From: Thermoplasmatales archaeon UBA582
GTDB lineage: Archaea; Thermoplasmatota; Thermoplasmata; Thermoplasmatales; Thermoplasmataceae
Direction of reading: 5' to 3'
DNA: 16,138 nucleotides
Assembly: GCA_002502705.1 (NCBI GenBank)
Contig: DAQB01000070.1
Span: forward strand, 936 to 17,073
The notes under the pieces are model-generated. The model was not told the DNA's origin. It was given only the letters and a program-made list of their open reading frames with translations, and made no database searches. The position numbers and the translations under genes are program-made. How positions within the stretch are numbered: position 1 is the stretch's first letter; each line of letters begins with the position of its first letter. Of the stretch, positions 1 to 15,004 are shown piece after piece.

Positions 1-981
1 GCCAAGAACTGCTTCTACCCAATAATGGTGAAAGAGTCGGAAATTATAGGCTTCGGAGACGTACCCGATGAGAATTTCCATCCAAGAAGTCAGGTAGAAA
101 ATGGTAACGGTTATAAGCTCGTGTGGCCAATTGATGTGAACGGCAACGAAAAGAAGTGGAGATATGCTCGGCAGAGCGTGGAATCGATCTTGAACCTGCT
201 TCGAGTAAAGAAAAGCAACAATGGGCGTATCGAGATTGAAATAGGAAAACCCTACGGCACAGTCAAGACTGTCTGGCAGAACCCAAAGTATGATGCTGCT
301 GAATATGGAACTAAACTCGTTCATGAACTTGTCCCCAATAGCAATTTTGATTTTCCCAAATCCGTATACAACGTCTATGATTGCATAGCTCCAATAATCT
401 CTGAGAGAAAAGAGGCAATAGTTCTGGACTTCTTTGCCGGATCTGGAACGACCGGACATGCCACGATTATGTTGAACAAGGAAGATAACGGATCAAGAAA
501 ATTCATTCTGTGTACAAACAACGAAAACGGGATAGCAGAAGAAATCTGCTACCCGAGAATCAAAGCAGTTATCGATGGAAACGAAAAATACAAAGAGATA
601 ACAGAATACGCAACGAATCTGAAGTACTTCAAGACTGATTTTGTTGATTCTGCTCCTACAGATCTAAACAAGAAGGTGCTTGTTGACAGATCGACAGAGA
701 TGCTCTGCCTTAAGGAATACTGCTTCAACCTGATACGAAATGATGCAAACTTTAGAGTTTTTTCCGGCGCGACCGGCAAATATCTGGGAATTATATATGA
801 CGATGCAGGAATAGAAGGGTTAAAATCTGAAGTGAGAAGAATTAACAGAAAATTCTCAGTATATATCTTTTCCCTCGATGAGGGAGTAAAGGAGGATGAG
901 TTCGAAGAAATTGCAGAATTGGTTGATCTCAAGCCGATTCCTGCCTCGATTCTAAACGTGTATAGGAGGATTTACAGATGA
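1..981 (+). CDS. mod: Type III restriction-modification DNA methyltransferase (Mod), 5'-truncated by the window edge
   Basis: This is the C-terminal portion of a type III Mod subunit, which recognises the DNA site, transfers a methyl group from SAM to adenine and partners with Res. The reading frame is open from base 1, with AKNCFYPI before the first ATG at 25, so the true start lies to the left. The SAM-binding motif I (DFFAGSGTTG) is encoded at 427-456. The catalytic DPPY motif, which precedes motif I in this beta-class order, must lie outside the window. The C-terminal ~150 residues after motif I match the usual position of the Mod tail. The stop overlaps the res start in ATGA (978-981), and an AGGAGG ribosome site at 964-969 sits inside mod, so the pair is translationally coupled. 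Family assignment rests on motif I plus the neighbouring res gene. Confidence 0.9.
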   Translation, partial: AKNCFYPIMVKESEIIGFGDVPDENFHPRSQVENGNGYKLVWPIDVNGNEKKWRYARQSVESILNLLRVKKSNNGRIEIEIGKPYGTVKTVWQNPKYDAAEYGTKLVHELVPNSNFDFPKSVYNVYDCIAPIISERKEAIVLDFFAGSGTTGHATIMLNKEDNGSRKFILCTNNENGIAEEICYPRIKAVIDGNEKYKEITEYATNLKYFKTDFVDSAPTDLNKKVLVDRSTEMLCLKEYCFNLIRNDANFRVFSGATGKYLGIIYDDAGIEGLKSEVRRINRKFSVYIFSLDEGVKEDEFEEIAELVDLKPIPASILNVYRRIYR

Positions 982-3188
982 TCGTCCTAAGAAACTATCA
1001 GAAGAAAGCAATTCGCGAGTTGTCAGAAGGATTGAAACAACTATTGGAATACAAAGGACAGTTTGTTGTCTCATTCAAAGCCCCGACTGGCAGCGGAAAA
1101 ACTCTAATGGTGTCAGAGTCTCTTAGTGCTATTGCAGGAGATATAGGAATCAAACATGATATCTCCTTTGTATGGATTTCGGTCAGGTCTCTTCACGAGC
1201 AAAGCAAGAAGAAATTGGAAGAGTATCTAATTAATAACAGACTAATCAAGTGCAGTTATTTCGAGGAACTCCAGGACCGGCAAATCAGCAAGAACGAGAT
1301 TCTGTTCATAAACTGGGAAAGTATCAACAAAAAAGACATAAACATTCTAATTAGAGAGAATGAACAGGATAACAACTTGAACAGCGTGATAGCTGGAACA
1401 AGGAGTGAGGGCAGGAAAATCATTCTTATCATCGACGAAAGCCATCACACGGCAAACGCCGAAAGATCCAGAGAACTTGTCAATATCATATCTCCTGACA
1501 TAGCTCTGGAAGTTTCTGCAACCCCAGTTCAGAAGTTATTCAATGTAACCGTGGAAGTCAAGTTGCCAGACGTTAAAGCTGAACAGATGATCAAGTCCGA
1601 GGTGGCAGTGAACCCGGGATTTATGAATTTGCAGGTAGGGAGCGAAAGCACTGACGAGGTAATCATAGATCAAGCCCTAAAATCCAGAGCAATGCTTTTA
1701 CGTCTCTTGAAAACCGAAGGAAGCAGATTAAACCCCCTTGTACTGATCCAGCTCCCCGACAAAAGGAACGATCTTGACGATAAGAAGGAAGAGGTCATAA
1801 GACTGCTTGACCGGAAATTCGATATTAACGAAAACAATGGAAGACTTGCAATTTGGTTGTCGGAAGATAAGTCTCCCTCACTCGTCGATATTGAAAAACC
1901 AGACAATGAAGTTGAGGTCCTAATATTCAAGCAAGCCATCGCGTTGGGGTGGGACTGTCCACGAGCATCCATACTTGTCATCTTCAGAGAACTGCGGAGC
2001 TTTACTTTTACGATCCAAACGATAGGACGAATAATGAGGATGCCTGAATTCAAATACTATAAGCGCGATGAATTGAACCGAGCGTACGTCTACACAAATC
2101 TTCCAAACGTTATAATTGAGGGTGACGAACTAAGAGATTACATTACAGTAAATGAGTCAAGGAGAGACAATACAAGATATTCAAATATCTCACTTCGTTC
2201 AATCTCTGTTGAAAGATTGCGAGAAAGGACAAGGCTTTCCGGAGAATTTCCAAAAATTTTTCAGAGAATTTCGGCTGACTATATGTTGAAAGAGAAAATT
2301 AATCTGTCTCCGAAGAGAATTTCTGAATTTATTATAGCAGACGGTGTGATCAAGAATGTCGATCAAACCGGAGAGATAGATAGCAAAGGGACTGTTTCAG
2401 TAGCATCTATGTCCGAGGAAATAAACAGAAAGTTTGACCTGTTTATATGGAAGAGTTGTACGCCGTATGCTCCCGTAGACTCTAGTGACAGAATAAAGAC
2501 GGCCATCTATACTTTTCTTAAAGACAACATGGGAGTTGAGAAATATTCTGAGCGGGCGCAAGCCATTACACTTGGGGTCGAGAATATAAGTCACTTCGAA
2601 AAAGTGATTGAGGAGAGCAAAGCCGTGTACGAAGAGGAAGTTGTCAATAAGCTGAACAAAAAGAGAGTTTTTGTCGAAAATTCGGACTGGGAAGTACCAG
2701 AATTCATTTCTTACAATGAAAAATACACTGTTTTTTCGTCTCGGAAATCCATTATGCAACCCTTTTACCGATATACTGATGCCAGCAAGACTGAAATAGA
2801 ATTCATGAAACTCCTTGATCGAAGCGATAATACAGTTAAATGGTGGTTTAAGAACCGTGAAAACGAACCCAAGTATTTCTCAGTTGGATACGAGAATGAT
2901 GAGGGCGGAAACTCCACCTTCTATGTGGACTTTATTGTGAAGTTTAATGACAACAGTATAGGTCTCTTTGATACCAAGTTTGGTGGAACTGCTACTATCG
3001 AATTCGCAAAAGCAAAGGCGGAAGCACTTCAGAAATATATCAAAATGGAAAACCAAAGAGGAAAAAATCTCAGCGGGGGCATTGTTGTCCCTACTGACGC
3101 ATCATATCTATCTTGGAGAATAAATCAAAATGATATTTACACAGATGATATTCAGAACATAGACAAGTGGAAACCTTTCAAACTTTAG
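978..3188 (+). CDS. res: Type III restriction endonuclease subunit Res
   Basis: The 736-aa protein is an SF2 helicase-translocase joined to a nuclease, the restriction subunit that cleaves unmethylated DNA with Mod. Visible motifs in order: Q-motif region LRNYQKKAI (residues 4-12), Walker A APTGSGKT (35-42), DEAD-type DESHH (153-157), SATP motif III (180-183) and the motif VI arginine-finger segment QTIGRIMRMP (about 345-354). A C-terminal PD-(D/E)XK nuclease core follows, with the acidic strand YVDFIV near residue 647 and FDTK (D665, K667). Length is somewhat shorter than many Res proteins (about 900-1000 aa), but every core motif is present and it looks functional. The ATG start at 978 overlaps the mod stop and has a strong AGGAGG upstream. 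Confidence 0.93.
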   Translation: MIVLRNYQKKAIRELSEGLKQLLEYKGQFVVSFKAPTGSGKTLMVSESLSAIAGDIGIKHDISFVWISVRSLHEQSKKKLEEYLINNRLIKCSYFEELQDRQISKNEILFINWESINKKDINILIRENEQDNNLNSVIAGTRSEGRKIILIIDESHHTANAERSRELVNIISPDIALEVSATPVQKLFNVTVEVKLPDVKAEQMIKSEVAVNPGFMNLQVGSESTDEVIIDQALKSRAMLLRLLKTEGSRLNPLVLIQLPDKRNDLDDKKEEVIRLLDRKFDINENNGRLAIWLSEDKSPSLVDIEKPDNEVEVLIFKQAIALGWDCPRASILVIFRELRSFTFTIQTIGRIMRMPEFKYYKRDELNRAYVYTNLPNVIIEGDELRDYITVNESRRDNTRYSNISLRSISVERLRERTRLSGEFPKIFQRISADYMLKEKINLSPKRISEFIIADGVIKNVDQTGEIDSKGTVSVASMSEEINRKFDLFIWKSCTPYAPVDSSDRIKTAIYTFLKDNMGVEKYSERAQAITLGVENISHFEKVIEESKAVYEEEVVNKLNKKRVFVENSDWEVPEFISYNEKYTVFSSRKSIMQPFYRYTDASKTEIEFMKLLDRSDNTVKWWFKNRENEPKYFSVGYENDEGGNSTFYVDFIVKFNDNSIGLFDTKFGGTATIEFAKAKAEALQKYIKMENQRGKNLSGGIVVPTDASYLSWRINQNDIYTDDIQNIDKWKPFKL

Positions 3189-3228: not shown

Positions 3229-3654
3229 TCATATGAAACCGGCAATCAATCTAAACACTATTTCAAACTCATTGTCTGCTCCACCACCTCCAGTAGTTTT
3301 CCCCCCGTACTTTATTGTAAGTATATTTCGGAGAGTATCCCAATTGTATCCCCATTTTTGATTGCCATAGGTTCCTTGATGTGCGGAAAAGAATGTTTTC
3401 CAATCCTCCAATATTTGACCTCTTAGGGCAAAAGGGGACTCAAAGGGTGCGTCATTTACAGTTTTTAGGTGCCAGGGATAAGCGTCAAAGAATTCCTGAA
3501 CCGCTCCAATAGCCTGTAGCATGTGACCGGTTGTGTTATCTGTATTAATCGGCCCTAACTCCATCGCTCTATTTGCTAACTTTGCAAGAGATCCGTTACT
3601 TCTGACTTCTCTATGACATTTACCCTGAAACCATTGCCTGCTTTTCAAAACCAC
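3229..3654 (-). CDS. Hypothetical protein, 141 aa
   Basis: I do not recognise this protein. It is convergent with res, leaving about 40 bp between the two stops. The product is soluble, with a basic N-terminus, a tryptophan- and aromatic-rich middle (for example EDWKTFFSAHQG) and a short glycine run (TTGGGGAD) near residues 119-126; no transmembrane helix or catalytic motif is evident. The start is taken as GTG at 3654, with a GAGGG-like ribosome site just upstream. A good TATA element lies at 3700-3709, which supports a real transcribed gene. It could be an intact small gene or a C-terminally altered relic, since the flanking area to the right is degraded. Confidence 0.5.
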   Translation of the reverse strand: MVLKSRQWFQGKCHREVRSNGSLAKLANRAMELGPINTDNTTGHMLQAIGAVQEFFDAYPWHLKTVNDAPFESPFALRGQILEDWKTFFSAHQGTYGNQKWGYNWDTLRNILTIKYGGKTTGGGGADNEFEIVFRLIAGFI

Positions 3655-3699
3655 ATACCCTCATCTTCCTTTTTATTGCATGACACAAATGACTTTGTT

Positions 3700-3709
3700 T
3701 AATATAAAG
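3700..3709 (-). promoter_or_regulatory. TATA box for the 141-aa gene
   Basis: On the minus strand the sequence reads CTTTATATTA, a good archaeal TATA element. It lies about 50 nt upstream of the GTG start at 3654, so transcription would begin near 3680 and leave a short leader carrying the GAGGG ribosome site. Between here and 3820 I see no further gene or structured element. Confidence 0.45.
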
Positions 3710-3820
3710 TTCATTCAGTGATTTCTTCTTTGTCTGTATTTGATGAGAGAAAACAATTTAATTGTACACGGTTCACAGTCTTACCTCAGAATCTCCATGA
3801 AGGAGTAAAGACAGGGCTGT

Positions 3821-4147
3821 TCAGCTTGACATCGTTGCGATATATCTCCCTAAAAGAGCTTCATTTCTGTATGTGTCCTGGTTCTGTACCCCGAATATAG
3901 CGAAATCTATGATCTCTTCAGCGAGCAGATGGAGTCTAAGCACCTGTAAAGGTCGTCCTTCCCGAGCCTTGGAGGATCCCACGGATTGTATGTCCCAGTA
4001 CGGGCGTGTCAGGGAGATGTTAGAATCGGGGCTGATGATTCCTCTGGCGATTATGAGGAAGGGCCCCTCCCGATATTTTTGGCGATCTCTACATCCCCCG
4101 TCATCGACGGCAAATCGCACAATGTACTGGATCAGTTCAAGAATCAC
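3821..4147 (-). CDS. Unrecognised 108-aa ORF, possibly a gene fragment
   Basis: I do not recognise this product. The minus-strand frame looks more coding-like than the overlapping plus-strand frames: it has a mixed hydrophobic and charged composition with segments such as GPFLIIARGIISPDS and LHLLAEEIIDFAIFG, and no low-complexity shadow character. The start would be GTG at 4147, but there is no clear ribosome site, and a stop codon lies in frame a few codons upstream. It follows the broken PIN gene by 15 nt on the same strand. Base composition is visibly richer in G and C than the neighbouring PIN gene. It may be the remaining tail of a larger protein whose front was lost. Confidence 0.35.
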   Translation of the reverse strand: MILELIQYIVRFAVDDGGCRDRQKYREGPFLIIARGIISPDSNISLTRPYWDIQSVGSSKAREGRPLQVLRLHLLAEEIIDFAIFGVQNQDTYRNEALLGRYIATMSS

Positions 4148-4162
4148 ATGCGAAATTCAAGT

Positions 4163-4975
4163 TTAAACCCCGCGGGATAATTTCTCTTTTAGGTCGTTAA
4201 TCTTGAACGCTTGGGGAAACTCGATTTTAGCGATGCTTTCAGAATCTGAAGTTAAGGTGGGTATCACAAAACACTCTGAATCTAAAGCAATCTTATCTCT
4301 GATCTTTTTCCAAATAGTACCTCGTGGCGGTGCTTGTAAATATTGAATAATGTTACGAAATTCACTGTCTCTAGTTAATATTGCGTCTGCTTGCAAATAA
4401 AGGGCGCATGAATACAGATAAAGATCAATTGAGCCCATAGCAACATTTCTTTGTACGGCCTCCACTATGTTAAGTATTGGGACCATAGCATCGGGACGCA
4501 CAGAATAATCATCACAACATTCCATTATGATCATATGCTCCCTCATAGTCTCTTTCAAGCGATCCATTCGATTTGCTACGATAGATATATATTCCTCTTT
4601 AATGGTGGAGCTTAGAATCACATGATTAGCAATTCGGTCTGGAACCCGAGTTCTTATTGCTTGGGTGAACATCAAGCTCTTTGTGAGAAGACTCCTTAGC
4701 TCTATCTCATTGAATTTTGAGTAAGAAACAGTAATTTTGCCCTGCTTATTCCCATCGCATAGTGCATGAACAACATCTCTTCCATGCTTTACATTATCTC
4801 TTGCTCCTTCGGCAATGCCAATAGAATATACTCTCAGTTATTCGCTCATATCAAATTTTTTACTCTCCTTAGTAAATGGATCAATACCCATCGCTTCACA
4901 ATAATCCAAATAAAGGATCATGTCCGATAAGTAGTTTGTATCAATGAAAATGTTAGATATTTTCTTCTTAGTCAC
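4163..4975 (-). pseudogene. PIN-domain RNase-like gene interrupted by one in-frame stop
   Basis: Read from GTG at 4975, one continuous frame of 271 codons contains a single TAA at 4838-4840 (codon 46). Before it is a PIN N-terminus with the first metal-binding aspartate in IFIDTNYLSDM (D12). After it the same frame continues with SKFNEIELRSLL (E90 or E92) and IDLYLYSCALYLQADAILTR followed by DSEF (D184 and D203 acidic positions). PIN proteins are Mg/Mn-dependent ribonucleases, often toxins or RNA-processing enzymes. Because frame and motifs are kept on both sides, the change is probably a recent point mutation or a sequence error. A shorter product could in theory restart at TTG 4675, but it would lack the first catalytic aspartate. 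The gene starts 22 nt after the ATPase remnant, suggesting an old operon. Confidence 0.7.
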
Positions 4976-4997
4976 TTAACCACCTACAATTATTTGC

Positions 4998-5436
4998 TTA
5001 CTGTGATAAGATTGTTGTACTTGTTAAATATCTTTTCAACAAATTCAATTGTGATAGGCGGGACTCTCGCTTGATCAATTGCTTCTGAAACAACGAAAAA
5101 AAGAGCCTAACCAACGCTCTGGGGAACATCTTGGTCGGTACCATCGATTTCAGAAAATCCAGAAGTTTTTCATCGAAAGGGAACAAATCACTAGGGGGAA
5201 CAGTGTTCTTGGGCCTTACCGTCCTTAGCCACCATTTTACCAATCGTAGCGCATAATCGGCAGAAAGGGGAAACAATGTAATAGCGTAATTTCCCTTGTT
5301 TGTTATTCTATCCCATAGAGCCGGATTCAAGTCTACGATTTGTTCTTGACTTTCGGAACTTAATCCAATTACAATCCAAAAATCTACCCCTTTTGACGTA
5401 TCAATGAGGATCTGTACACCACATTCAGGGTGCTGC
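4998..5436 (-). pseudogene. C-terminal remnant of a AAA-like P-loop ATPase
   Basis: The frame is open into the opposite strand of the methyltransferase remnant, and its first in-frame start codon (TTG at 5465) lies inside that foreign sequence, so the N-terminus is lost. What remains resembles the second half of a AAA-type ATPase: a sensor-1-like strand DFWIVIGLSSES, then NPALWDRITNKG (like the 'LLDRF' segment), FPLSADYALRLVKWWL (like the 'LPPLSEEEA' helix) and FPRALVRLFFSLF, which is like the sensor-2 'NPR' helix. No Walker A or B survives. This is pattern recognition at the fold level, with no specific family. It is upstream of and co-directional with the PIN gene, so the two may have formed one system before it was disrupted. 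Confidence 0.5.
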
Positions 5437-5560
5437 AGGACCAAAAAAGAGGATGCTTCTGACAAGGAAGCTCAGGGTCGCATTCCTCCATGAGAAGGTC
5501 TTCATGGAGATGAGGGACATGAAGTACGGAAGGGATATTGATACTGCATTCAGGGTGCTG
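5422..5560. repeat. 14-bp direct repeat flanking the remnant junction
   Basis: CATTCAGGGTGCTG occurs exactly at 5422-5435 and again at 5547-5560, 125 bp apart. The second copy lies inside the methyltransferase frame (encoding AFRVL). The first sits exactly where the antisense ATPase remnant gives way to methyltransferase sequence. The period is not a multiple of three, so it is not an in-frame domain repeat. It may mark the rearrangement point, or may be chance. Confidence 0.5.
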
Positions 5561-6002
5561 TCTTGCAGACTTTCTCATTCATGGGGACGGCAGGACATTC
5601 GGGAGGCGATTCAAGGGCACAACTAAATTTCCAAGGTTCGGCATAGAGAACTTCATCCTTGTGAGGGACTGGACCATTGAGAGCATGGATTTCAGGGAAC
5701 TGTTCCAGATATACAACAAGCCAAGGGTTTTGATGTACCTTGATCCACCGTACCTTTCATCGGGCAGGAAATACAGGCATAGTTTCACGATTGACAACCT
5801 TAAGGAACTGAAAATGTGCATGGATGATCACAGCGGTTCGTATCTTCTGAATTTATCATCATTCGATGAGGGGATGGAGGAGATCTTCGGGAGGCCTGAC
5901 AGGATTATTGACTACGCAAATCCTGTTAATAACAACGGGAAAGAGAAGTGGGGTTGCGGGTACTGGTGGGCTTCTAGCTTCGAATCTGGAAATTCCTCTT
6001 GA
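5438..6002 (+). pseudogene. D12-class N6-adenine DNA methyltransferase remnant, N-terminally truncated and frameshifted
   Basis: The catalytic motif IV is clear: VLMYLDPPYLSSGRKYRHSF (DPPY at about 5740-5751) is typical of Dam-like D12 methyltransferases. Upstream, DIDTAFRVLSCRLSHS corresponds to the 'A..F..LNR.SFSG' segment, but it is in a different frame from the GDGRTFGRRFKGTTKF that should follow. Removing the single T at 5582 restores the frame (…CRLSHS-GDGRTFG…), so a +1 insertion explains the break. The first ~100 residues, including SAM motif I (FGGSG), are absent: to the left the sequence changes into the antisense ATPase remnant. The end, after EKWGCGYWW, is also uncertain. It is not expected to make active enzyme. 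Confidence 0.72.
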
Positions 6003-6018
6003 CTACCTTAGTGAGGAT

Positions 6019-6516
6019 TCATCTTCCATTAAAGCGAGCAGACGAGATAACGCTAAAGATATCCTTATCATTATAAATACTTTCCAATACGCCTTTAAAC
6101 ATAAATGCCGTGGCAAGACCGGTCTTCTCCTGAATCATTAACAGTTCCATTACTTTTGCAATAAATTCCACGGAATAATCGCCAAATGAATCCAGTGGCA
6201 TATATTGTGATACATGAGCAAGGTCCGAATACCTCAGTTCGCAGCGAAGTTGCTCTTCCTTAGTCCTGAAAGGTGAAACATTTTCCCACATTTGAAGAAG
6301 GTACCAAACAAAGCTCTTGGTTAGGTCCGCATTATGCTCTTTCTTAATCATAAGGTCCATGGCCCAATGGAGGTGACTTGGGGTCCTTTCCCTCTTACCT
6401 GGCTCTCTATACTTTACCTTTATGTCCAGATCAGGTCTGCTTCCGTACTGGCCCTGATATACGTTAATTAGTATACCATCTCGAAGTGGAAATGTCTTGA
6501 TCAGAACTGAACCCAT
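6019..6516 (-). CDS. Hypothetical protein, 165 aa, divergent from a DNA methyltransferase
   Basis: I do not recognise a named family. The protein has an ATG start at 6516 and is soluble. It has a basic stretch YREPGKRERTPSHLHWAMDL, a charged helical middle, and a C-terminal part with IAKVMELLMIQEKTG and KGVLESIYNDKDIFS. No confident nuclease triad is visible; RPDLDIKVKY has acidic residues and a lysine but not a clear PD-(D/E)XK pattern. The 82-bp divergent spacer shared with the RHH/methyltransferase pair suggests joint control. An orphan beta-class methyltransferase often sits beside a hard-to-recognise restriction endonuclease, so a restriction role is possible but unproven. Confidence 0.65.
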   Translation of the reverse strand: MGSVLIKTFPLRDGILINVYQGQYGSRPDLDIKVKYREPGKRERTPSHLHWAMDLMIKKEHNADLTKSFVWYLLQMWENVSPFRTKEEQLRCELRYSDLAHVSQYMPLDSFGDYSVEFIAKVMELLMIQEKTGLATAFMFKGVLESIYNDKDIFSVISSARFNGR

Positions 6517-6598: not shown

Positions 6599-6748
6599 AT
6601 GGCAAAAGTACCATTGAACATTACGGTTGACGAAGAAGTTCTGGAGGAATTTAAAAGGATCTGCAACAATAATGATATAAAAATCTCAACGAAAGTAAAC
6701 TCCCTAATGCGGGAATGGGTCAAAAAAAACGGGGGAGACCTAATTTGA
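6599..6748 (+). CDS. Small ribbon-helix-helix (CopG/Arc-like) DNA-binding protein, 49 aa
   Basis: This short ORF encodes a compact RHH fold: a beta strand VPLNITVDEEV (residues 4-14), helix 1 LEEFKRICNNNDI and helix 2 STKVNSLMREWVKKNG. RHH proteins act as dimeric transcription repressors, inserting the beta strand in the DNA major groove. It sits directly after a TATA element and three AATATG repeats. Its TGA stop (6746-6748) overlaps a TTG start for the methyltransferase, which suggests a control protein for the modification gene, comparable in role (not sequence) to C proteins of restriction-modification systems. The first ATG is used because the promoter spacing fits a leaderless message. 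Confidence 0.65.
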   Translation: MAKVPLNITVDEEVLEEFKRICNNNDIKISTKVNSLMREWVKKNGGDLI

Positions 6749-7527
6749 AACATCAGATTTATATGGGGGACAGTCTGGAAATACTCAAGCAATTGCCGGA
6801 AAACTCTGTGGACATGGTTTTCGCCGATCCCCCATACGGTTTGGCGAAGAAGAGGGGATTGGGATGGAAATATAGCAAGCATATTACCTTACATGAGGCT
6901 TGGGATATTTTTACAAGAGACGAATTTTTCAAATTCAATCTAGAATGGATCAGCGAGAGCATGAGAGTTCTTAGACAAGGGGGAAGTATTTGGGTTTGTG
7001 GTTCCTTCCATAATATATATCAAATAGGGTTCATCCTCCAGCATCTTGATGCAAAGATAAATAATAGTATTGTGTGGTTTAAGCCCAATGCTCAGCCGAA
7101 TATAACCAGAAGGATGTTTACGGAGAGCACAGAGCACCTGATATGGGCGGTTAAAAATCATTCCAAAACGAAATGGACATTTAATTATGACGCAATGCGT
7201 GCATTGAACGATGGGAAACAGATGAGAAACATGTGGGAAATTCCGCTCACCCCAAAGAGCGAGAAGTGGGCCGGGGAACACCCAACACAGAAGCCTTTTG
7301 AACTTCTGAAAAGGATAATTCTTGCTTCTACAAATGAAGGTGACACTGTGCTGGATCCTTTTCTCGGTTCTGGCACAACATCAGTAGTGGCTGAATACTA
7401 TGGGAGGAATTCCATAGGGATAGAAAAAAACTCAGAATATTTACCAATTATTAGGAAGAGGATGAGCGTCAATCAAGCAAAAATTGATCGAGGCGAGTCA
7501 GAAGTTGTTTACATGTATCCGGAATAA
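6745..7527 (+). CDS. Beta-class DNA methyltransferase (N6-adenine or N4-cytosine)
   Basis: A SAM-dependent DNA methyltransferase with motif order IV then I, as in the beta class. Catalytic DPPYG is at residues 28-32, the conserved GEHPTQKP at about 175-182 and SAM-binding DPFLGSGTT at 204-212. DPPY is most usual for adenine enzymes, but N4-cytosine cannot be excluded, and the target site is not predictable here. I place the start at TTG 6745, overlapping the RHH stop (TTGA), because a GGGGGAG ribosome site (6731-6737) is 7 nt upstream and the protein then begins LKHQIYMGDSLEIL as in relatives. ATG 6715 would add ten residues inside the RHH gene and lacks a good ribosome site. No recognised endonuclease is adjacent; the divergent 165-aa gene is the only candidate. 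Confidence 0.88.
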   Translation: MKHQIYMGDSLEILKQLPENSVDMVFADPPYGLAKKRGLGWKYSKHITLHEAWDIFTRDEFFKFNLEWISESMRVLRQGGSIWVCGSFHNIYQIGFILQHLDAKINNSIVWFKPNAQPNITRRMFTESTEHLIWAVKNHSKTKWTFNYDAMRALNDGKQMRNMWEIPLTPKSEKWAGEHPTQKPFELLKRIILASTNEGDTVLDPFLGSGTTSVVAEYYGRNSIGIEKNSEYLPIIRKRMSVNQAKIDRGESEVVYMYPE

Positions 7528-7580: not shown

Positions 7581-8882
7581 TCACTCCAACGCACTCAAAG
7601 CATCTGGTTTTAATTCCGCTTGGAGCCTGGCAGGCATAAGCTGATTCTTAAAGACCCAGGTGTTATGGAATCCCCGTCTTTTGTTGCGATTTGCTCCTCG
7701 AAAGATTATTACTTCTATGCCATTTTTCTGACATATTTCGCATCCACACTTTTCCCAGGGCCTGCTTTCAAGGGTTCGTCTATATCTGTGCTCGAGATTC
7801 TCTTCGCCTTTCGAACTCCTTGTTAGGAGTTTGTCATATTCCATTACATTTGCCAAGGCTTCATCAACATCAATTTCTCCTCTAGAATAGCTGATAAGTG
7901 ATTCATACGCCCGCTTTTCCAAGGTTTCCAGTGAAGATTGTGAAATGCCAAGTTCGGAAGTAGCCTTCAATAAATTTCTATTAGATGAGAAAGGTATTCT
8001 AATTGCCGAGTACCATTTACCGTCTGAGGAAAGATAATTCTGTCCGGACCTTAACCAAGCTTTCCTGAAGAAAGATGCGCTGTCGAAGCTCGTGACCCCT
8101 AACTTTTCAAACTCGTTAATATAACTTGGTCTTAGGACACCGAACAAGTGAAGATCCCTGTCCTCAAGCAACGGTTGTACTGATCTTAGTATTTTGAGTA
8201 ACTCACCGTTATTATATTGGACCAGCGACCCCAGCGCCACATAGTCATATCCCTGGGATATGAGCTTTTCAACACTGTCAGCATAAGTTTCAGGACTGTA
8301 ACCCTGGGCTGCCCCTATAGGCCTGAATTTTAATTTTTTTTCCTTTACTATGCTTATGAATTCTTCAGAATTCCGTAACGTAATCTGCCTCCTTCTTTCC
8401 CTTTCACTTTCTGGCAGTTCCTTGTAGGTTCTTTTTCCATTTTCCTTTACCTGTAAGAATTTTATGGCCATATGGTCCGGACTAACTCCAAAATCAAACT
8501 TCAGACTAGAGTAAAGAGAAGCGGTCTTCTCTGGCGAATACTCAGGAGGTGGCTCGTACTCTGTGACGTAGCTGAAGGCGCCACAATCGCCCATTATTTT
8601 TATTCTGGAATATTTTGGTATTTTTAGATACTCTTTTACAGATGATATTCCCCTGATCGTTCGCATTCCATTACCGTTTGTCCCCAATTTGAGTTTAGAC
8701 TCAAAGTTGCTTAAGCTGAACAGGATCCCATCGTAAACTGGCTTTTTAGAGTATATCTGGTGAGCATAGACATCATTTTTGTACGAATTATTTACATGAC
8801 CGGGTGAAAATTCGTCATTGACGAATTCAAAATTGGGATCAACCCTGTCTTCCCAGTCTGGAAGGAAAAATTTCATAGTCAT
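7581..8882 (-). CDS. dpdA: DpdA-type DNA 7-deazaguanine transglycosylase
   Basis: The 433-aa protein is a TGT-superfamily enzyme of the DpdA branch, which exchanges guanine in DNA for a 7-deazaguanine such as preQ0. Visible features: GDCGAFSYV with the first catalytic aspartate D99, GAAQG (190-194), the nucleophile aspartate in VTSFDSAS (D267), and the zinc site C379-x-C381-x2-C384 with H406 in the tail IFRGANRNKRRGFHNTW, a DpdA hallmark. The GGL(A/S)VGE-type loop of tRNA enzymes is replaced by ALGSLVQYN, and there is no PUA domain, which argues against a tRNA archaeosine transglycosylase. It is the last gene of a four-gene operon with a nuclease and a helicase, 87 bp after the nuclease stop. 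The base donor must come from genes elsewhere. The start is ATG 8882; ATG 8876 is an alternative. Confidence 0.85.
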   Translation of the reverse strand: MTMKFFLPDWEDRVDPNFEFVNDEFSPGHVNNSYKNDVYAHQIYSKKPVYDGILFSLSNFESKLKLGTNGNGMRTIRGISSVKEYLKIPKYSRIKIMGDCGAFSYVTEYEPPPEYSPEKTASLYSSLKFDFGVSPDHMAIKFLQVKENGKRTYKELPESERERRRQITLRNSEEFISIVKEKKLKFRPIGAAQGYSPETYADSVEKLISQGYDYVALGSLVQYNNGELLKILRSVQPLLEDRDLHLFGVLRPSYINEFEKLGVTSFDSASFFRKAWLRSGQNYLSSDGKWYSAIRIPFSSNRNLLKATSELGISQSSLETLEKRAYESLISYSRGEIDVDEALANVMEYDKLLTRSSKGEENLEHRYRRTLESRPWEKCGCEICQKNGIEVIIFRGANRNKRRGFHNTWVFKNQLMPARLQAELKPDALSALE

Positions 8883-8905
8883 TTAAATGTCATTCCCAGA
8901 ATACA

Positions 8906-8919
8906 CTATTTGTATATGA
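8906..8919 (-). promoter_or_regulatory. Possible TATA element for dpdA
   Basis: The minus strand reads CATATACAAATAG about 30 nt upstream of the dpdA ATG, inside the 87-bp gap after the nuclease gene. There is no ribosome site before dpdA, so leaderless transcription from here is plausible in addition to read-through from the operon. The match is weak. Confidence 0.3.
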
Positions 8920-8969
8920 GCTCTAGCTTGAACATTAATAGTTTATGGGAGCAAAGCAGTTGTTCAAGG

Positions 8970-10172
8970 TCATTCTGTTATCCTTGGTGGCCTCTTATCA
9001 CTTGACTTTGGGCAGAATGTTTTAAAGTCGCAGATTGTGCAGGTCTCATCCCTTGGCAACATTTTCCAAGTTTCAAGAATTTTCTTACCTCTCATTTCAT
9101 CAATAACAGAATTTTCTATCTCAGAAACCGCCCCATCCATGCTCCTTAGGCTCTGGTCTATGTTTTGCTTATTGACTTGTATTATTCTAATAGATCTGTT
9201 AATCATCGACTCAGGAGATAATTGAAGTGAATGAGTTGCTCCATTCCAAGCTTTAAGTGATGCCAAGTCTTGACTGTTGAGTTTGAGATCATCAGTTGAA
9301 TTACCCTGTTGAGACAAGACAAGCCTTTGTAATTTTTTAAGGTCGCTCTCTGATGGTACCAATTCATTAAGGTAGAAAATTATGGCTACTCGAACTCTGT
9401 TAGATTCTAATTGCTTTTCTCTTAGCCAAGCATACGTCATGACCTGGTCGTAGTGGTGATTCCACTCCGCATCTGAGGGTTTTGGTCTGGCCATACCTTT
9501 GTAGTCTATTATGATGTCAAACTCATTTTGCGCAGCTTCTTGCAGTAATTCCTCACCGAATTTTTCCTCTCTTATTTTTTTTAAAATTAAATTATCAGGT
9601 CCAGCACTAGCAACCTTAACTGAGGCCAGAACATCAACAATGCCGGTTATTCCATAATGCCTAGAGCGACTTATGCTCTCAGAATAGTTCGGCATAGGTC
9701 GGGTCCCCTTCAGTTTAACTTCAGCCTCTGAAATCAGGGGGAAAAGATGTGGTGCCCAAACCTCTAAAGTTCTTTCCACTCTTTTACTTGCTATCAATTT
9801 ATGTGGGTGATTTTCGTCGGGACAGCCACCCAATTTTTCATTGGGTTCGTCATATGGACAAAATATGTTCGGAGGTGGTCTTACACCTCCTGCTGCAAGG
9901 CGTTTATATACTGTCATTTCTATATCACGTATTCTAGATGCCCAATCTAAAGGTAATACACGATAATTTGGATTTTTCTTCCACCTCAGATAAGCTTCCT
10001 CAAGAGATCCATGTATAAATTGCCCAAACCACAATTGTACTGGTCTGGCTGGAGGAAGTTCTCCCTTGTTCTGCAAACGATACTGGAGACCGCAGGAATG
10101 ATATGAGAGAATATCTCCAGTTATGCTATATTCCGGGATTATATACGGTCTTTTTTTTATTTTCATTTCCAT
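8970..10172 (-). CDS. Cas4/AddB-like PD-(D/E)XK nuclease with a predicted Fe-S cluster
   Basis: The 400-aa protein has the RecB-family nuclease layout. H54 (FGQFIHGSLEEAY), an acidic position E149/E151, D180 (GIVDVL), D223 and K225 (IIIDYKG) and Q243 (YDQVMTYAWL) form the metal-dependent active site. Four cysteines, C27 (SYHSCGLQYR) near the N-terminus and C378, C381, C387 (CTICDFKTFC) at the C-terminus, bracket the domain as in Cas4 and AddB and should hold a 4Fe-4S cluster. These enzymes degrade or resect DNA, usually from ends. Here it follows a UvrD-like helicase by 9 nt with a GAGGTGA ribosome site, so the two probably form an AddAB-like helicase-nuclease. No cas genes or CRISPR array are present, so it should not be called cas4. 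All key residues are intact. Confidence 0.87.
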   Translation of the reverse strand: MEMKIKKRPYIIPEYSITGDILSYHSCGLQYRLQNKGELPPARPVQLWFGQFIHGSLEEAYLRWKKNPNYRVLPLDWASRIRDIEMTVYKRLAAGGVRPPPNIFCPYDEPNEKLGGCPDENHPHKLIASKRVERTLEVWAPHLFPLISEAEVKLKGTRPMPNYSESISRSRHYGITGIVDVLASVKVASAGPDNLILKKIREEKFGEELLQEAAQNEFDIIIDYKGMARPKPSDAEWNHHYDQVMTYAWLREKQLESNRVRVAIIFYLNELVPSESDLKKLQRLVLSQQGNSTDDLKLNSQDLASLKAWNGATHSLQLSPESMINRSIRIIQVNKQNIDQSLRSMDGAVSEIENSVIDEMRGKKILETWKMLPRDETCTICDFKTFCPKSSDKRPPRITE

Positions 10173-10181
10173 TCTTTCACC

Positions 10182-12518
10182 TCAGATGAGTTTAACATTT
10201 TTTGATAGCTGTCCCCATTCGTTATTAGAATCTCTTGTCCAGCCGGTTGCTACGTTTTTAACTTTACCATTAATGCTAGCACTTAGTCCAACTAGAACAA
10301 GGCAATCTTGTGGCCTACTATAAGCGACAAAATAATCACGATAAAGATCATTGAAATCTCTGTCAATAGGTTTGACTGATGACTTTCCAAGTGGGGAATA
10401 ATTCAATATAAAATCCTCAAGGGCACTTGTGCTTCCAACCTTTTCAGGAAAACGCTTGAAGGCTTGTTTCCAATGGTTTATGGCAAAGTCAGAACCGACA
10501 TCCACAATCACCATAGGAAACTCAAGCCCCTTGGATTGATGTATGGATAACACGTTAATTCTATCAGATGGGACAGTCTCAAGAAGGTCTTCATTTATCT
10601 CAACAGAATTCGTGGCTATTGGTACCATGATATCCCATATTATGTCTTTTATGGATAGTTCTCTTAATTTATCTTTTCCCTGACCGAGATTTATTATGCC
10701 GGACAAAGGCTCTATCATTGCACTTTGCTCCACCGCACGAGTTATTAGCTCAAGATAGGCAAGCCCAATGAGGTCATTGTGGAGATCAGGCATCCAACCT
10801 ACTAAATCGTATATTAACTTATTTAGATGAACTACGGCTTTTTTTGATTTTCCGTTATTCAAAATAAAGTCCCTTGATTCTTGCACATAATCCTGCAAAG
10901 TTCTACTATTTGCTAACTTGTGCTTATTATCATTCAAAAATTTATTAGCCGCAATCTCCCATTCATTAAAAGTATACTGTACTTCACGCGGGAGGTTGAC
11001 AATGGATTCTTGGATAGATTTATCGCCATCGATAATCATCAATATTAACCCAAGCAATTCTTTAATTGCTGGTTCTGTGGAAATATCTCTTCCTCTAGGG
11101 TTGAATAGTTTTAAAGGTCTGGCGATATCGTTCAATTGATTGCTGAGGAGGAGTGGTAATCGTTCTTTCCCGCTGCTTGCATATTCCCGAGGAGAATGCA
11201 TCAAAACTGCTAAATCTGCGGCCGAGCCAGCATTAGCATTTAACGAGATTTTATCACCATTATTTAATGTAAAACCCCCTTCATTGACAATTTTCTCTAT
11301 AAATCCCGAAACTGCGCTGACTAGATCGCTTATATTATCCCTAAAAATACCAAGTACTGGCAAACCACTTTTATTTTTTCCATTTGGGGGTGAAATTTTG
11401 GGTTTTCCTGGGACTCTGGAAGCTTGGTACTTAGAGTCCAAGCCTACAAAGGCATTGACAAAATCTATTATTTCCAAAGTTGATCTATAGTTTGTGTAAA
11501 GATTAATGGATTTTGCATCAACATTAGCGCAGGATTTGAATCTTGAAACGAAATTTCTAAAAAGTTCTACTGTTGCGCCCCTAAACCTGTATAATGATTG
11601 GTCGTCATCGCCAACAACTACTATGCTTCCTCCATTTTCTACGGCACTCTTCCCCATCCTGAAATATATACTTTCCTGCAAAAGATTTGTATCTTGATAT
11701 TCATCTATCATTATGAATTTTAAATTAGATAAAAAATCCCTAAGGTAACCATTCCTTAGTTTTTCATCAAAGATCGTTTCAAGCTTCCCATAGTCCAGCA
11801 AATTTCGACGGTCAAGTTCTGAGAAATAAGCATTTAACGCTTCTGTTAGTCTTAAAATTCCCTTATTTTGGCTGGCATCCTGTTCAAGTTTTTTTAAATC
11901 CACCATGTTTGTGTACACTTGGTCTTTGATCGTCAACAAAAGCTCAGCCTTTTGGCGAGCATTTAGAGAGCCGGCCCCCTCTCCACTTAATGATTTGAGA
12001 AGATCCTCCAAGGAGGTGCTGTTGTGCCTTCCATTGTCAAATAACCCGAATCTTAGCATGATCGAAGTTGATACAAATTTTTCTATAACAACTGGTTCAA
12101 TCTCTCCGGGAGACTTGTACTCTGCCATTATATCCTGCGCAAGGCTGTCGATTGTACCAACATATATTTTATTAAGGTCAATGGTAGACAGGAATTTTAT
12201 TGTATTTTCATCTTGAATTTGATTCAATAAGCTCTGTCTCAAATCATCGCCCCAACCCAAAACTCTGGACCGCAGTTCTTGGGCTGCCCTTCTGGTAAAA
12301 GTAGTTAGGACTATTTGTTCTGGTTTTTCACCATCCACAAAAATTAGCTTAAGGACTCTCAGGGCCATAACTGTTGTTTTTCCACTTCCTGGACCGGCAA
12401 TTATGTACAGTGATGTATTTTTATCCGATAATATTGCATCCCTCTGGCTTGTGTCTGACTTTAAGTCTTTGTCAAGCGTGTCCTCTGCAGTGGTTAAAAA
12501 CAAATCAATAGGTATCAA
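10182..12518 (-). CDS. UvrD/PcrA/Rep-like superfamily 1A DNA helicase
   Basis: The 778-aa protein carries all main SF1A motifs: Q-motif SQRDAIL (24-30), Walker A AGPGSGKTT (41-49), motif Ia TTFTRRAAQELRSR (72-85), GTIDSLAQDIM (121-131), Walker B FIMIDEYQDTN (268-278), motif III VVGDDDQSLYRFRGA (301-315), motif IV NLYTNYRST, motif V VLSIHQSKGLEFP and motif VI YFVAYSRPQDCLVL near the C-terminus. Such enzymes move 3' to 5' on single-stranded DNA and unwind duplexes. It has no fused nuclease domain; the nuclease is the next gene. Translation likely begins at TTG 12518, overlapping the upstream gene's TGA by 4 nt (TTGA), with GGTGAT as ribosome site. The operon context suggests it feeds DNA to the nuclease and works with DpdA in a modification-dependent defence. 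Confidence 0.9.
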   Translation of the reverse strand: MIPIDLFLTTAEDTLDKDLKSDTSQRDAILSDKNTSLYIIAGPGSGKTTVMALRVLKLIFVDGEKPEQIVLTTFTRRAAQELRSRVLGWGDDLRQSLLNQIQDENTIKFLSTIDLNKIYVGTIDSLAQDIMAEYKSPGEIEPVVIEKFVSTSIMLRFGLFDNGRHNSTSLEDLLKSLSGEGAGSLNARQKAELLLTIKDQVYTNMVDLKKLEQDASQNKGILRLTEALNAYFSELDRRNLLDYGKLETIFDEKLRNGYLRDFLSNLKFIMIDEYQDTNLLQESIYFRMGKSAVENGGSIVVVGDDDQSLYRFRGATVELFRNFVSRFKSCANVDAKSINLYTNYRSTLEIIDFVNAFVGLDSKYQASRVPGKPKISPPNGKNKSGLPVLGIFRDNISDLVSAVSGFIEKIVNEGGFTLNNGDKISLNANAGSAADLAVLMHSPREYASSGKERLPLLLSNQLNDIARPLKLFNPRGRDISTEPAIKELLGLILMIIDGDKSIQESIVNLPREVQYTFNEWEIAANKFLNDNKHKLANSRTLQDYVQESRDFILNNGKSKKAVVHLNKLIYDLVGWMPDLHNDLIGLAYLELITRAVEQSAMIEPLSGIINLGQGKDKLRELSIKDIIWDIMVPIATNSVEINEDLLETVPSDRINVLSIHQSKGLEFPMVIVDVGSDFAINHWKQAFKRFPEKVGSTSALEDFILNYSPLGKSSVKPIDRDFNDLYRDYFVAYSRPQDCLVLVGLSASINGKVKNVATGWTRDSNNEWGQLSKNVKLI

Positions 12519-12961
12519 GCACGATCACCAGAATTCGTAATTAGCCAAGTTTTAAACGTACTAACCCGTTTTATTATATCTCCCGTCAGAACTTTTATTG
12601 GAATATTATGCTTTTCTAAATTCTGTATATCAAGGGCTTGTATGTAAATCCGACCAAGATTGATAACTACTTCATTGTAAGAATTTTGATTTAAAAATTC
12701 ATCTAGTTGCTTTGTGACTGAGTTCCTCATTTCTTTTGCCCTTTTCACGGTCATTTTCTGGTCGTAGGGAGATATCTTTGTTTTGTGGTCTATAAGCCCG
12801 TATTTCGCAGATAAAATCAACACATCGATGGAGTTTAGATTCGTCTTCCTTAGCATTTTATAGTACGGACCATCGTACACCTCTATTGCTTCTGCTTCTG
12901 GAACTGAGCGCTTCGATTTTGAGCATGGAACAATCAATAATTTTTTTCCAAATGCAACCAT
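12515..12961 (-). CDS. DUF6884/YaaA-like protein, first gene of the Dpd-like operon
   Basis: The 148-aa protein has the pattern of the DUF6884/YaaA-like group: a first strand ending in LLIVPCSKSKR (C13-S-K-S-K17), EVYDGPYYKML (27-37), LILSAKYGLID (48-58) and SPYDQKM (64-70). YaaA itself is a peroxide-stress, DNA-associated protein in bacteria; the biochemical role of DUF6884 members is not established. The CS.(K/R)K strand recalls the CSARKPY-like strand in archaeosine synthase, which also handles 7-deazaguanine, so a role in tailoring the DNA base is conceivable but speculative. Its stop overlaps the helicase start, so it belongs to the same operon. The ATG at 12961 has only a T-rich stretch upstream, with no clear ribosome site or TATA box. 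Confidence 0.7.
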   Translation of the reverse strand: MVAFGKKLLIVPCSKSKRSVPEAEAIEVYDGPYYKMLRKTNLNSIDVLILSAKYGLIDHKTKISPYDQKMTVKRAKEMRNSVTKQLDEFLNQNSYNEVVINLGRIYIQALDIQNLEKHNIPIKVLTGDIIKRVSTFKTWLITNSGDRA

Positions 12962-13462: not shown

Positions 13463-13530
13463 CAGGGCGCATCACCTTTTTTATTCCACTTTATTGTCTG
13501 ATGATAGTTGCCCATAATTTTTTCTTTCAT
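13459..13530 (-). CDS. Micro-ORF of 23 codons linking the HNH gene and the membrane protein
   Basis: ATG at 13530 overlaps the HNH stop as ATGA, and its TGA at 13459-13461 overlaps the TTG start of the membrane gene. The peptide is MKEKIMGNYHQTIKWNKKGD followed by APC. The double overlap exactly fills the gap between two neighbouring genes, which suggests translational coupling rather than a functional peptide. No similarity is recognised. Confidence 0.4.
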   Translation of the reverse strand: MKEKIMGNYHQTIKWNKKGDAPC

Positions 13531-13934
13531 TTATTTCCCCTATTCCGAATACATTCATTATAGAATTTCTCAAATTCGCTTCTGCGTTTTAAAATAATTT
13601 TTCTTTTTTCTTCAATAATTTTGTCTATACGCTCTTCGAATGGCATACCTTTATATTTGTCGAAATTTGCCCTCGTCCTCATATTGTTGCAAATTTTGCA
13701 GGCCACTCTAAGGTTCCTTTTGTCATTCCTGTATTTTTGATCTTCTCCCGTTAGCTGCGTATAAGGAATAACATGTTCTCTTGTAAGTTGCATCCATTCT
13801 TCAAAGGAACCTCCACAATACTTGTGACAATAAATGCACGTATAGTTGTATTCCTCGAACAGCCTCCTGCTGTATCCCATTAGAGATGTGTCTTTTTCCC
13901 CTCTGCAATTAGATTGTTCTTCCTCTTTGTCCAT
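13527..13934 (-). CDS. HNH endonuclease, PtuB-like partner of the adjacent ATPase
   Basis: The 135-aa protein carries a zinc-ribbon HNH nuclease: C33-x2-C36 (YTCIYCHKYC), the catalytic histidine in REHVIPYT (H54), an asparagine in KRNLRVACK (N74), and C79-x2-C82 in CKICNNMRTRANF. HNH enzymes nick or cut DNA with a single metal ion. A charged helical tail (residues about 100-135, rich in E, K and R) follows. The gene begins one base before the end of the ATPase gene (TAATG overlap), so the two are translationally coupled. A AAA ATPase followed by a small HNH protein is the layout of Septu defence (PtuA-PtuB); the HNH here is shorter than typical PtuB, so 'Septu-like' is the safest label. Confidence 0.8.
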   Translation of the reverse strand: MDKEEEQSNCRGEKDTSLMGYSRRLFEEYNYTCIYCHKYCGGSFEEWMQLTREHVIPYTQLTGEDQKYRNDKRNLRVACKICNNMRTRANFDKYKGMPFEERIDKIIEEKRKIILKRRSEFEKFYNECIRNRGNK

Positions 13935-15004
13935 TACATTTCGCCTCTTTCCATAAAGGATATTAAATCGCTAACTTCATTGTCTTTGCTAATTTCCCTT
14001 ACATCACAGAATGCGGAGTCATTTCTCTTCTTGAATTGGATGAATTTTGCATCAGTATCTTGTTCCGGATATATATCAGATAGAAAGAGTGGTGAATGTG
14101 TTGTCATTATTATTTGAATTCGATTTTCCTTTACTGTAGTCAACATGATCTGCTTTAACTCCCTAATTGCTGAAGGGTGCAAATGTATTTCCGGCTCTTC
14201 TATAATTATTGATGAGCCTGGTGGAGCATACTCAAAGGTTATCAAAAGTATTAGCAGTTCTCTGAGCCCCTTCGAAATTAAATGGGAAGGTATCACACGA
14301 TTAAAGCCAGTGATTCCCATATTAACCATGACTCTTCCGTTTTCCAAAGACGTTTTAAGAGACTTAATCTCCCTTGCGATTCTCACGGCTTTTTCCATAA
14401 TAGAATTATATTTTTCAATTTGATTTAATTTCATTTCCAAGAGGGCATTGACAACATTATATTCTCCCGGTTTTTGGCCTGTGTTTCCCGGAGTGTTTTG
14501 TGGTATTTCTCTAACTTCGTTTAGGACGAATAGATTAAGTAGCGAGCTCAGAGAATTCGGGTTCAGGTAATGCGGAGAGACGGTAACAGGAAAAGCATTG
14601 CTGATAAATCCGCCACTGCTTAGATTTTTACCCAAGTTAAGCTTTAAAATCCCCTGCAATGGTCTGCCATTGAATATTAATTCAGATTCTAGTTCCAAAT
14701 AAGATGAATTTTGTCCGATTAAATCTTTTTTTAAAACGTCAGAAACTTGATAAAGTTTTTCTAATTCTATACCTGAAATATCAAATCTGGAATAGAAATC
14801 AGAGTTACCAGATGGGCTCGAATCTGTAATCGGATTAGAATTTGCATAAGTAGGATAAATTGGGCTGAGTGAATTTAAAATACCTTTTAAAAAATTTGAC
14901 TTACCAGACCCGTTTTCTCCAATCAAAACATTAAAATTTGATAGTTTAACATCGATGTTTTCTAAGTTCCTGAAATTTTGTATCTTGACCGTTTTAAATA
15001 TCAT
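13934..15004 (-). CDS. AAA (ABC/SMC-like) ATPase, PtuA-like
   Basis: The 356-aa protein is an ATP-binding protein of the RecF/SMC-like class. Walker A is NVLIGENGSGKSNFL (25-39), a signature-like segment is HLISKGLRELLILL, Walker B is SSIIIEEPEIHLHPSA and the H-loop is IIMTTHSPLFLS. It ends about 50 residues after the H-loop with no TOPRIM domain, so it is not an OLD-family nuclease. It is shorter than many PtuA proteins but keeps both halves of the ATPase. It lies 7 nt after the winged-helix gene and overlaps the HNH gene start. In Septu systems the ATPase senses infection and controls the nuclease; the same role is inferred here from layout alone. Confidence 0.82.
   Translation of the reverse strand: MIFKTVKIQNFRNLENIDVKLSNFNVLIGENGSGKSNFLKGILNSLSPIYPTYANSNPITDSSPSGNSDFYSRFDISGIELEKLYQVSDVLKKDLIGQNSSYLELESELIFNGRPLQGILKLNLGKNLSSGGFISNAFPVTVSPHYLNPNSLSSLLNLFVLNEVREIPQNTPGNTGQKPGEYNVVNALLEMKLNQIEKYNSIMEKAVRIAREIKSLKTSLENGRVMVNMGITGFNRVIPSHLISKGLRELLILLITFEYAPPGSSIIIEEPEIHLHPSAIRELKQIMLTTVKENRIQIIMTTHSPLFLSDIYPEQDTDAKFIQFKKRNDSAFCDVREISKDNEVSDLISFMERGEM

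Follow-up and report, generated by a model that had tools for sequence, protein, structure and literature searches.

Defence based on 7-deazaguanine takes up to eleven genes according to the accessible text of PMC11888242, and DpdB is suggested in the accessible part of PMC12839542 to be dispensable in certain clusters. In the text available of PMC5704561, fusions of UvrD with a Cas4-like nuclease of the PF12705 family are described as forming part of multiple defence systems. The window analyzed here, a stretch of 16,138 nucleotides from Thermoplasmatales archaeon UBA582, carries a DpdA together with a UvrD helicase, a Cas4-type nuclease and a DUF6884 protein (Table I). We read this operon, with a probability of about two in three, as a compact Dpd-type restriction-modification system devoid of DpdB, in which 7-deazaguanine would mark self and the helicase-nuclease would degrade unmarked DNA. 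The minus-strand open reading frames agree with the initial annotation of four same-strand genes, separated by a 4-nt overlap (DUF6884/UvrD), a 9-nt gap (UvrD/nuclease) and an 87-nt gap (nuclease/DpdA), UvrD and nuclease being located between DUF6884 and DpdA. This arrangement is not due to chance, because the same gene set recurs far outside the Thermoplasmatales lineage.

Table I. Coordinates of features in the window and, where a locus number (L) is given, in related loci
Feature	Coordinates	Strand	Remarks
DUF6884 protein	12515..12961	(-)	148 aa
UvrD/AddA-type SF1 helicase	10182..12518	(-)	778 aa, TTG start
PD-(D/E)XK nuclease (AddB/Cas4 type)	8970..10172	(-)	400 aa, four conserved cysteines
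DpdA, predicted DNA-guanine transglycosylase	7581..8882	(-)	433 aa
87-nt gap ahead of DpdA	8883..8969	(-)	
AAA ATPase	13527-15004		AAA_21/AAA_15; forms a pair with HNH nuclease gene, overlap 1 nt
Type III Mod and Res-like partner	1-3188		Mod truncated by window edge
Run of short ORFs	3229-6516		
ORF like part of a phage DNA methyltransferase	5538-6002		within the run of short ORFs
CcrM-like DNA methyltransferase	6715-7527		stand-alone, convergent with DpdA
DpdA-DUF6884 fusion	L103:9458-11158		
TGT-like proteins with C-terminal DUF6884 domain	L131:8379-9704, L132:515-1963		
Stand-alone DUF6884	L143:9354-9797, L144:8760-9242		
Divergent TGT-like genes	L127:7704-8612, L128:5907-6878, L147:3155-4093		near UvrD-nuclease and methyltransferase

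The DpdA of the window scores 413.1 bits against NF041059 (cut-off 200) and is also matched by PADLOC as DpdA; among solved structures its profile retrieves PDB 7ui4 at E 1.6e-106 and the archaeal enzyme ArcTGT (1iq8) at E 2.8e-4. Against TIGR00432 (TgtA) it reaches 26.8 bits, below the 350-bit cut-off, and a separate true tRNA TgtA is found elsewhere in the same genome (481.6 bits). A tRNA role for the operon protein is thus rejected on its NF041059 score, the match to 7ui4 over ArcTGT and the separate TgtA, and the DNA type originally proposed for this transglycosylase holds. Residues D99, D267 and C379/C381/C384/H406 of DpdA are invariant in the alignment of relatives (23 rows), as are H54, E151, D180, D223, K225, Q243 and Y247 and the cysteines C27/C378/C381/C387 of the nuclease (23 rows) and the DEYQDT motif at 272-277 of the helicase (14 rows). 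We take these, from knowledge of the families, to be catalytic, zinc or Fe-S positions, in keeping with the key residues noted at the outset as intact in all three enzymes. DpdA is rare in Thermoplasmatota, exceeding the cut-off in 2 out of 389 genomes; contig DARE01000002.1 (UBA447, assembly 62% complete) encodes a protein identical to that of the window, and one distant record occurs in the phage collection.

The DUF6884 protein scores 61.7 bits against PF21818 (cut-off 30) and exceeds the cut-off of PF03883 (DUF328) too. Its profile finds nothing better than E 0.07 among solved structures, where no solved DpdC figures among the rows, and Foldseek with the predicted model returns nothing at E 0.001 or better. 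A second structural aligner relates the fold to YaaA and AF0587, and hhalign reveals a distant relationship with DpdC. Because of this kinship, the protein is predicted to be a DpdC-like enzyme that probably converts DNA-bound preQ0; adaptation of the base, one of the two options initially offered besides its recognition, is consequently the better one. Since phmmer with one classical DpdC matches no protein of the compact clade defined below, the kinship of DUF6884 with DpdC is distant at best and not one of orthology. Fusion to DpdA is seen in 8 of 120 homologues among the matches listed, out of 2515. Three loci (L143, L144, L146) contain DUF6884 without any TGT match; the stand-alone genes of L143 and L144 are embedded among a series of small genes which, by eye, resembles a mobile element. 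The TGT-like proteins of L131 and L132, far below the DpdA cut-off, possibly represent a further class.

The helicase scores 159.6 bits against PF00580 (cut-off 23), its nearest solved structures by profile being DNA helicase II, UvrD1, AddA and PcrA. The nuclease scores 45.3 bits against PF12705 (cut-off 22); its sequence profile matches none of the solved structures, and in Foldseek the first five rows are all the B chain of AddAB, with E values from 3.9e-6 to 5.0e-5 and a TM-score (by query) of approximately 0.40. This AddB-like fold sustains the initial description of an AddAB-like pair of UvrD and Cas4-type nuclease, and the two genes are adjacent, in accordance with the UvrD-Cas4 (PF12705) organization in which the helicase is adjacent or fused to a Cas4-like nuclease. 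A fused UvrD-nuclease-like protein of 928 residues occurs in L130 (genome G285), without a TGT match and close to a HerA match and to a DUF6884 match whose profile alignment includes a stop.

Of 195 related loci on genome contigs, the 80 best were retrieved, together with one IMG/VR contig. The DpdA tree comprises 83 rows, leaving out L111 (a copy of L033), L080 (a fragment), six tRNA-type rows and L079, in which no DpdA exceeds our threshold. It contains a clade of 37 loci including the window (support 100/98), hereafter the compact clade. The 15 named phyla of this clade are Thermoplasmatota, Methanobacteriota and Hydrothermarchaeota among archaea and, among bacteria, Aquificota, Bacillota, Bacteroidota, Chloroflexota, Planctomycetota, Acidobacteriota, Pseudomonadota, Actinomycetota, Latescibacterota, Nitrospirota, Poribacteria and Armatimonadota, with the reserve that short contigs may carry a misleading taxonomy through MAG binning and that L036, L037 and L039, short MAG contigs branching with archaea, may be mis-binned. 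The view of the cassette as purely archaeal is therefore not tenable, the clade spanning both domains. Scored with HMMs whose construction and iteration drew on these same loci, at thresholds set by us and with near-identical loci (L044-L046/L052, L088/L104, L075/L078) counted separately, UvrD and nuclease accompany DpdA in 33 of the 37 compact loci and 8 of the remaining 43 DpdA loci that were scored, and DUF6884 is present in 36 of 37 (fused to DpdA in 20, missing from L043), so that the linkage of the four genes is indeed conserved in relatives. HerA and NurA occur in six compact loci (L038, L042, L045, L046, L059, L096), as the sole helicase-nuclease in L038 and L042; L045 and L042 have a NurA match above the Pfam cut-off, that of L038 stays below it, and the copy in L059 has no Pfam match. 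Either pair is thus found in 35 of 37 loci and neither in two, L037, whose contig stops within UvrD, and L103. The latter carries a DpdA-DUF6884 fusion with genes downstream that resemble, by eye, those of a relaxase and TraG, and possibly encodes an orphan protective modifier. The IMG/VR contig (L112, 86 kb) contains UvrD, nuclease and DpdA toward one end, its DUF6884 being a 79-residue piece.

The DpdA-DUF6884 and UvrD-nuclease pairs behave as two modules that reassort. Over 32-33 clade loci, evolutionary distances correlate within the modules (r 0.72 for DpdA-DUF6884, r 0.94 for UvrD-nuclease) and less between them (0.39-0.46), none of 2000 permutations reaching the observed correlation for any pair. 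Compared with its two Thermoplasmata relatives, the window shares 60-61% identity in DpdA and 28% in the nuclease, and the order of the genes is not the same. On plasmids, the window nuclease used as a tblastn query matches 3 out of 72,556 records, all within the 25 that have a DpdA match. On the Bradyrhizobium (L133) and Rhizobium (L134) plasmids the neighbours of the pair are DpdC, two DpdB, DpdA, queE, queD and queC, and no match to DpdD or F-K is found in these stretches, the UvrD-nuclease occupying the place of the restriction genes DpdD-K; on the Picosynechococcus plasmid the helicase and nuclease lie approximately 9 kb from DpdA on the opposite strand. Beside DpdCBA, UvrD-nuclease takes the place of DpdD-K, and beside DpdA-DUF6884, HerA-NurA takes that of UvrD-nuclease; both exchanges speak for the helicase-nuclease as the restriction arm.

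Classical DpdB, C, D, F (part), G, H, I, J and K, used as phmmer queries from L114, match in none of the 37 compact loci, and a DpdE-type gene is found in one (L054). The DpdB family NF041060 is likewise absent from all 35 compact-clade genomes, that of the window included, and present in both control plasmids. This absence would also suit an explanation in which the UvrD-nuclease serves modification or DNA repair, the helicase opening strands for DpdA in the role of DpdB and the nuclease tidying ends, as would the kinship of the pair with recombination enzymes and the closeness with which it follows TGT-like partners. However, the two rhizobial plasmids combine the pair with two DpdB genes and do without DpdD or F-K, the active-site residues of the nuclease are kept, and L103 has DpdA-DUF6884 without a helicase; we consider this explanation unlikely.

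Screening of the 389 Thermoplasmatota genomes with the nuclease profile yielded eight at E 1e-5 or better, five strong (>280 bits) and three weak (<=38 bits). Two of the strong ones are the DpdA genomes and the other three are L127-L129, in all of which UvrD and nuclease are accompanied by an N6/N4 methyltransferase, with a ResIII helicase in L127 and L129 and, in L128, a restriction-helicase candidate with a weak restriction-enzyme match. This Mod-Res context accords with the UvrD-Cas4 account in the accessible text of PMC5704561. All three also contain, 0.2 to 7 kb from the pair, a gene for a TGT-like protein of 302-323 residues. The L127 and L128 copies receive no name from Pfam or PHROG, none of the three has a significant match in NCBIfam, and the profile of this protein (A8) matched none of the solved structures. 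The TGT profile gives the protein 42.8, 38.6 and 26.1 bits, the last for a cut piece and the best shuffled control reaching 4.6, and hhalign aligns this family of three sequences with DpdA (probability 92.7, E 4.2e-7); a profile built from the three recovers, among the 389 genomes, these three alone. All five strong nuclease genomes thus possess a TGT-fold partner near the pair, which indicates that the engine is tied to base exchange. The initial pairing of UvrD-nuclease with DpdA stands and is to be corrected in that the pair also serves classical DpdCBA and the divergent TGT-like partner. A broader reading would see here a guanine-modification immunity common to both domains, whose AddAB-like enzyme loads at the ends or breaks of DNA, is held back by marked bases and degrades DNA that lacks them, reading 7-deazaguanine as a distributed 'stop' as AddAB reads Chi; the engine would be tied to compact DpdA, classical DpdCBA and the divergent TGT-like family, with HerA-NurA as the alternative engine. 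Taken as a whole, this reading is tentative and rather doubtful.

The window carries further defence genes according to family and PADLOC matches. The AAA ATPase has HEC-01A as its top PADLOC match, with PtuA ranked lower, and the overlapping HNH nuclease matches PtuB (5.7e-7); the two look like a Septu- or HEC-like pair adjoining the operon. A Mod and a Res-type gene stand not only in the window (Table I) but also close to the cassette in L032 and L033/L111. Among the short ORFs between Mod-Res and the methyltransferase gene, three others that were scanned have no PHROG match, and the run consists perhaps of decayed genes. Mod genes near the cassette in all three Thermoplasmata loci raise the question whether the modification is instead a mark protecting a mobile element against host restriction, the UvrD-nuclease pair belonging to the neighbouring type III system and lying next to DpdA through the chance make-up of the defence island. 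The methyltransferase genes of L127-L129, the association of UvrD-Cas4 with Mod-Res published in PMC5704561 (as far as its accessible text goes), the relaxase-looking genes of L103 and the relative on an IMG/VR contig could all be understood in this way. Yet the association of the pair with DpdA holds for 33 of 37 compact loci and 3 of 3 plasmids, L127-L129 carry the TGT-like gene as well, and in the window the pair is flanked by DUF6884 and DpdA, so that we regard such a protective mark as quite improbable.

Of 34 genomes, 28 have a QueC match of E 1e-20 or better, that of the window among them, and in the other six QueC is missing or weakly matched; preQ0 genes lie nearby in 6 of the 37 compact loci, and the window system must draw its preQ0 from another part of the genome. 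Returning to the restriction-modification reading, DpdA would exchange DNA guanine for host-made preQ0, whose nitrile the DUF6884 enzyme would then convert within DNA, most likely to the amide dADG and less likely to dG+. UvrD and the AddB/Cas4-type nuclease may form an AddAB-like helicase-nuclease, entering DNA or moving along it and degrading the stretches that lack the mark, with the helicase supplying ATP in place of DpdB. We infer this base chemistry, the ATP supply and the restriction activity from family, fold and context. The reverse, a type IV-like nuclease attacking foreign DNA that bears 7-deazaguanine, could draw on the many viruses with such bases or genes mentioned in the accessible text of PMC6884629, but the host itself would then be exposed to attack through the marks set by the DpdA of the operon, which makes this reading scarcely credible. 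For the restriction-modification reading we count the DNA type of DpdA, its fusions with DUF6884 and scarcity in the phylum, the linkage in 33 of 37 loci, the plasmid and Thermoplasmatota partners, the HerA-NurA exchange, the defence neighbours, the correlated distances and the frequency of QueC; against it, DUF6884 without TGT (L143, L144, L146), the exceptions L043 and L103, the QueC gaps, the few nearby preQ0 genes, the blank DpdC search and the presence of UvrD and nuclease in only 8 of the 43 other DpdA loci scored. The haloarchaeal plasmid L113, with a TGT protein of 967 residues, a second TGT and adjoining queC-folE-queE-queD type genes, is perhaps a BRIGADE-type locus.

If this reading is true, 7-deazaguanine defence shrinks from up to eleven genes (PMC11888242, accessible text) to four, is placed in archaea and some 15 phyla, and DpdB proves dispensable; the cassette, small and transplantable, would then lend itself to studying how a helicase-nuclease distinguishes modified from plain guanine. 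A further suggestion is that cassettes for modification and engines for DNA degradation are exchanged as whole units. No description of DpdA with UvrD/Cas4 or HerA-NurA was found among the papers listed in the literature searched, and the main subscription papers on Dpd may mention the variant; UvrD-Cas4 beside type III systems is already published.

Compared with classical Dpd (dpdA-K, for example on the Enterobacter plasmid L114), the compact form shares the DpdA equivalog, a DpdC-like domain (PF03883/DUF328, DUF6884) and a predicted preQ0-based DNA modification, whereas it has no DpdB and no match to DpdD or F-K, forms a separate DpdA clade and would use UvrD and an AddB/Cas4-type nuclease as its restriction arm. 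With UvrD-Cas4 beside type III Mod-Res (PMC5704561, accessible text) it has in common both protein families, the defence context and the two-gene or fused form; the partner here is the base exchanger DpdA-DUF6884, and the main text of that paper contains neither 'transglycosylase' nor 'queuine'. BRIGADE, the Dpd-like YprA systems of halophilic archaea described in the accessible text of PMC12458937, likewise unites 7-deazaguanine genes and a nuclease in archaea, whereas no match to DpdJ (YprA), scored with the DpdJ query from L114, occurs in the 37 compact loci, that of the window included. BREX-Related Capture (PMC12839542, accessible text) resembles the compact form in its TGT with a HerA/FtsK translocase and in lacking DpdB, and differs by PglZ/BrxC-like parts and, according to that paper, the lack of a DpdC homologue; the main text of the paper names neither UvrD nor NurA. 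Finally, AddAB and RecBCD share the combination of helicase and nuclease, AddB being the top fold match, whereas here two smaller proteins are found within a defence island and linked to a base modifier.
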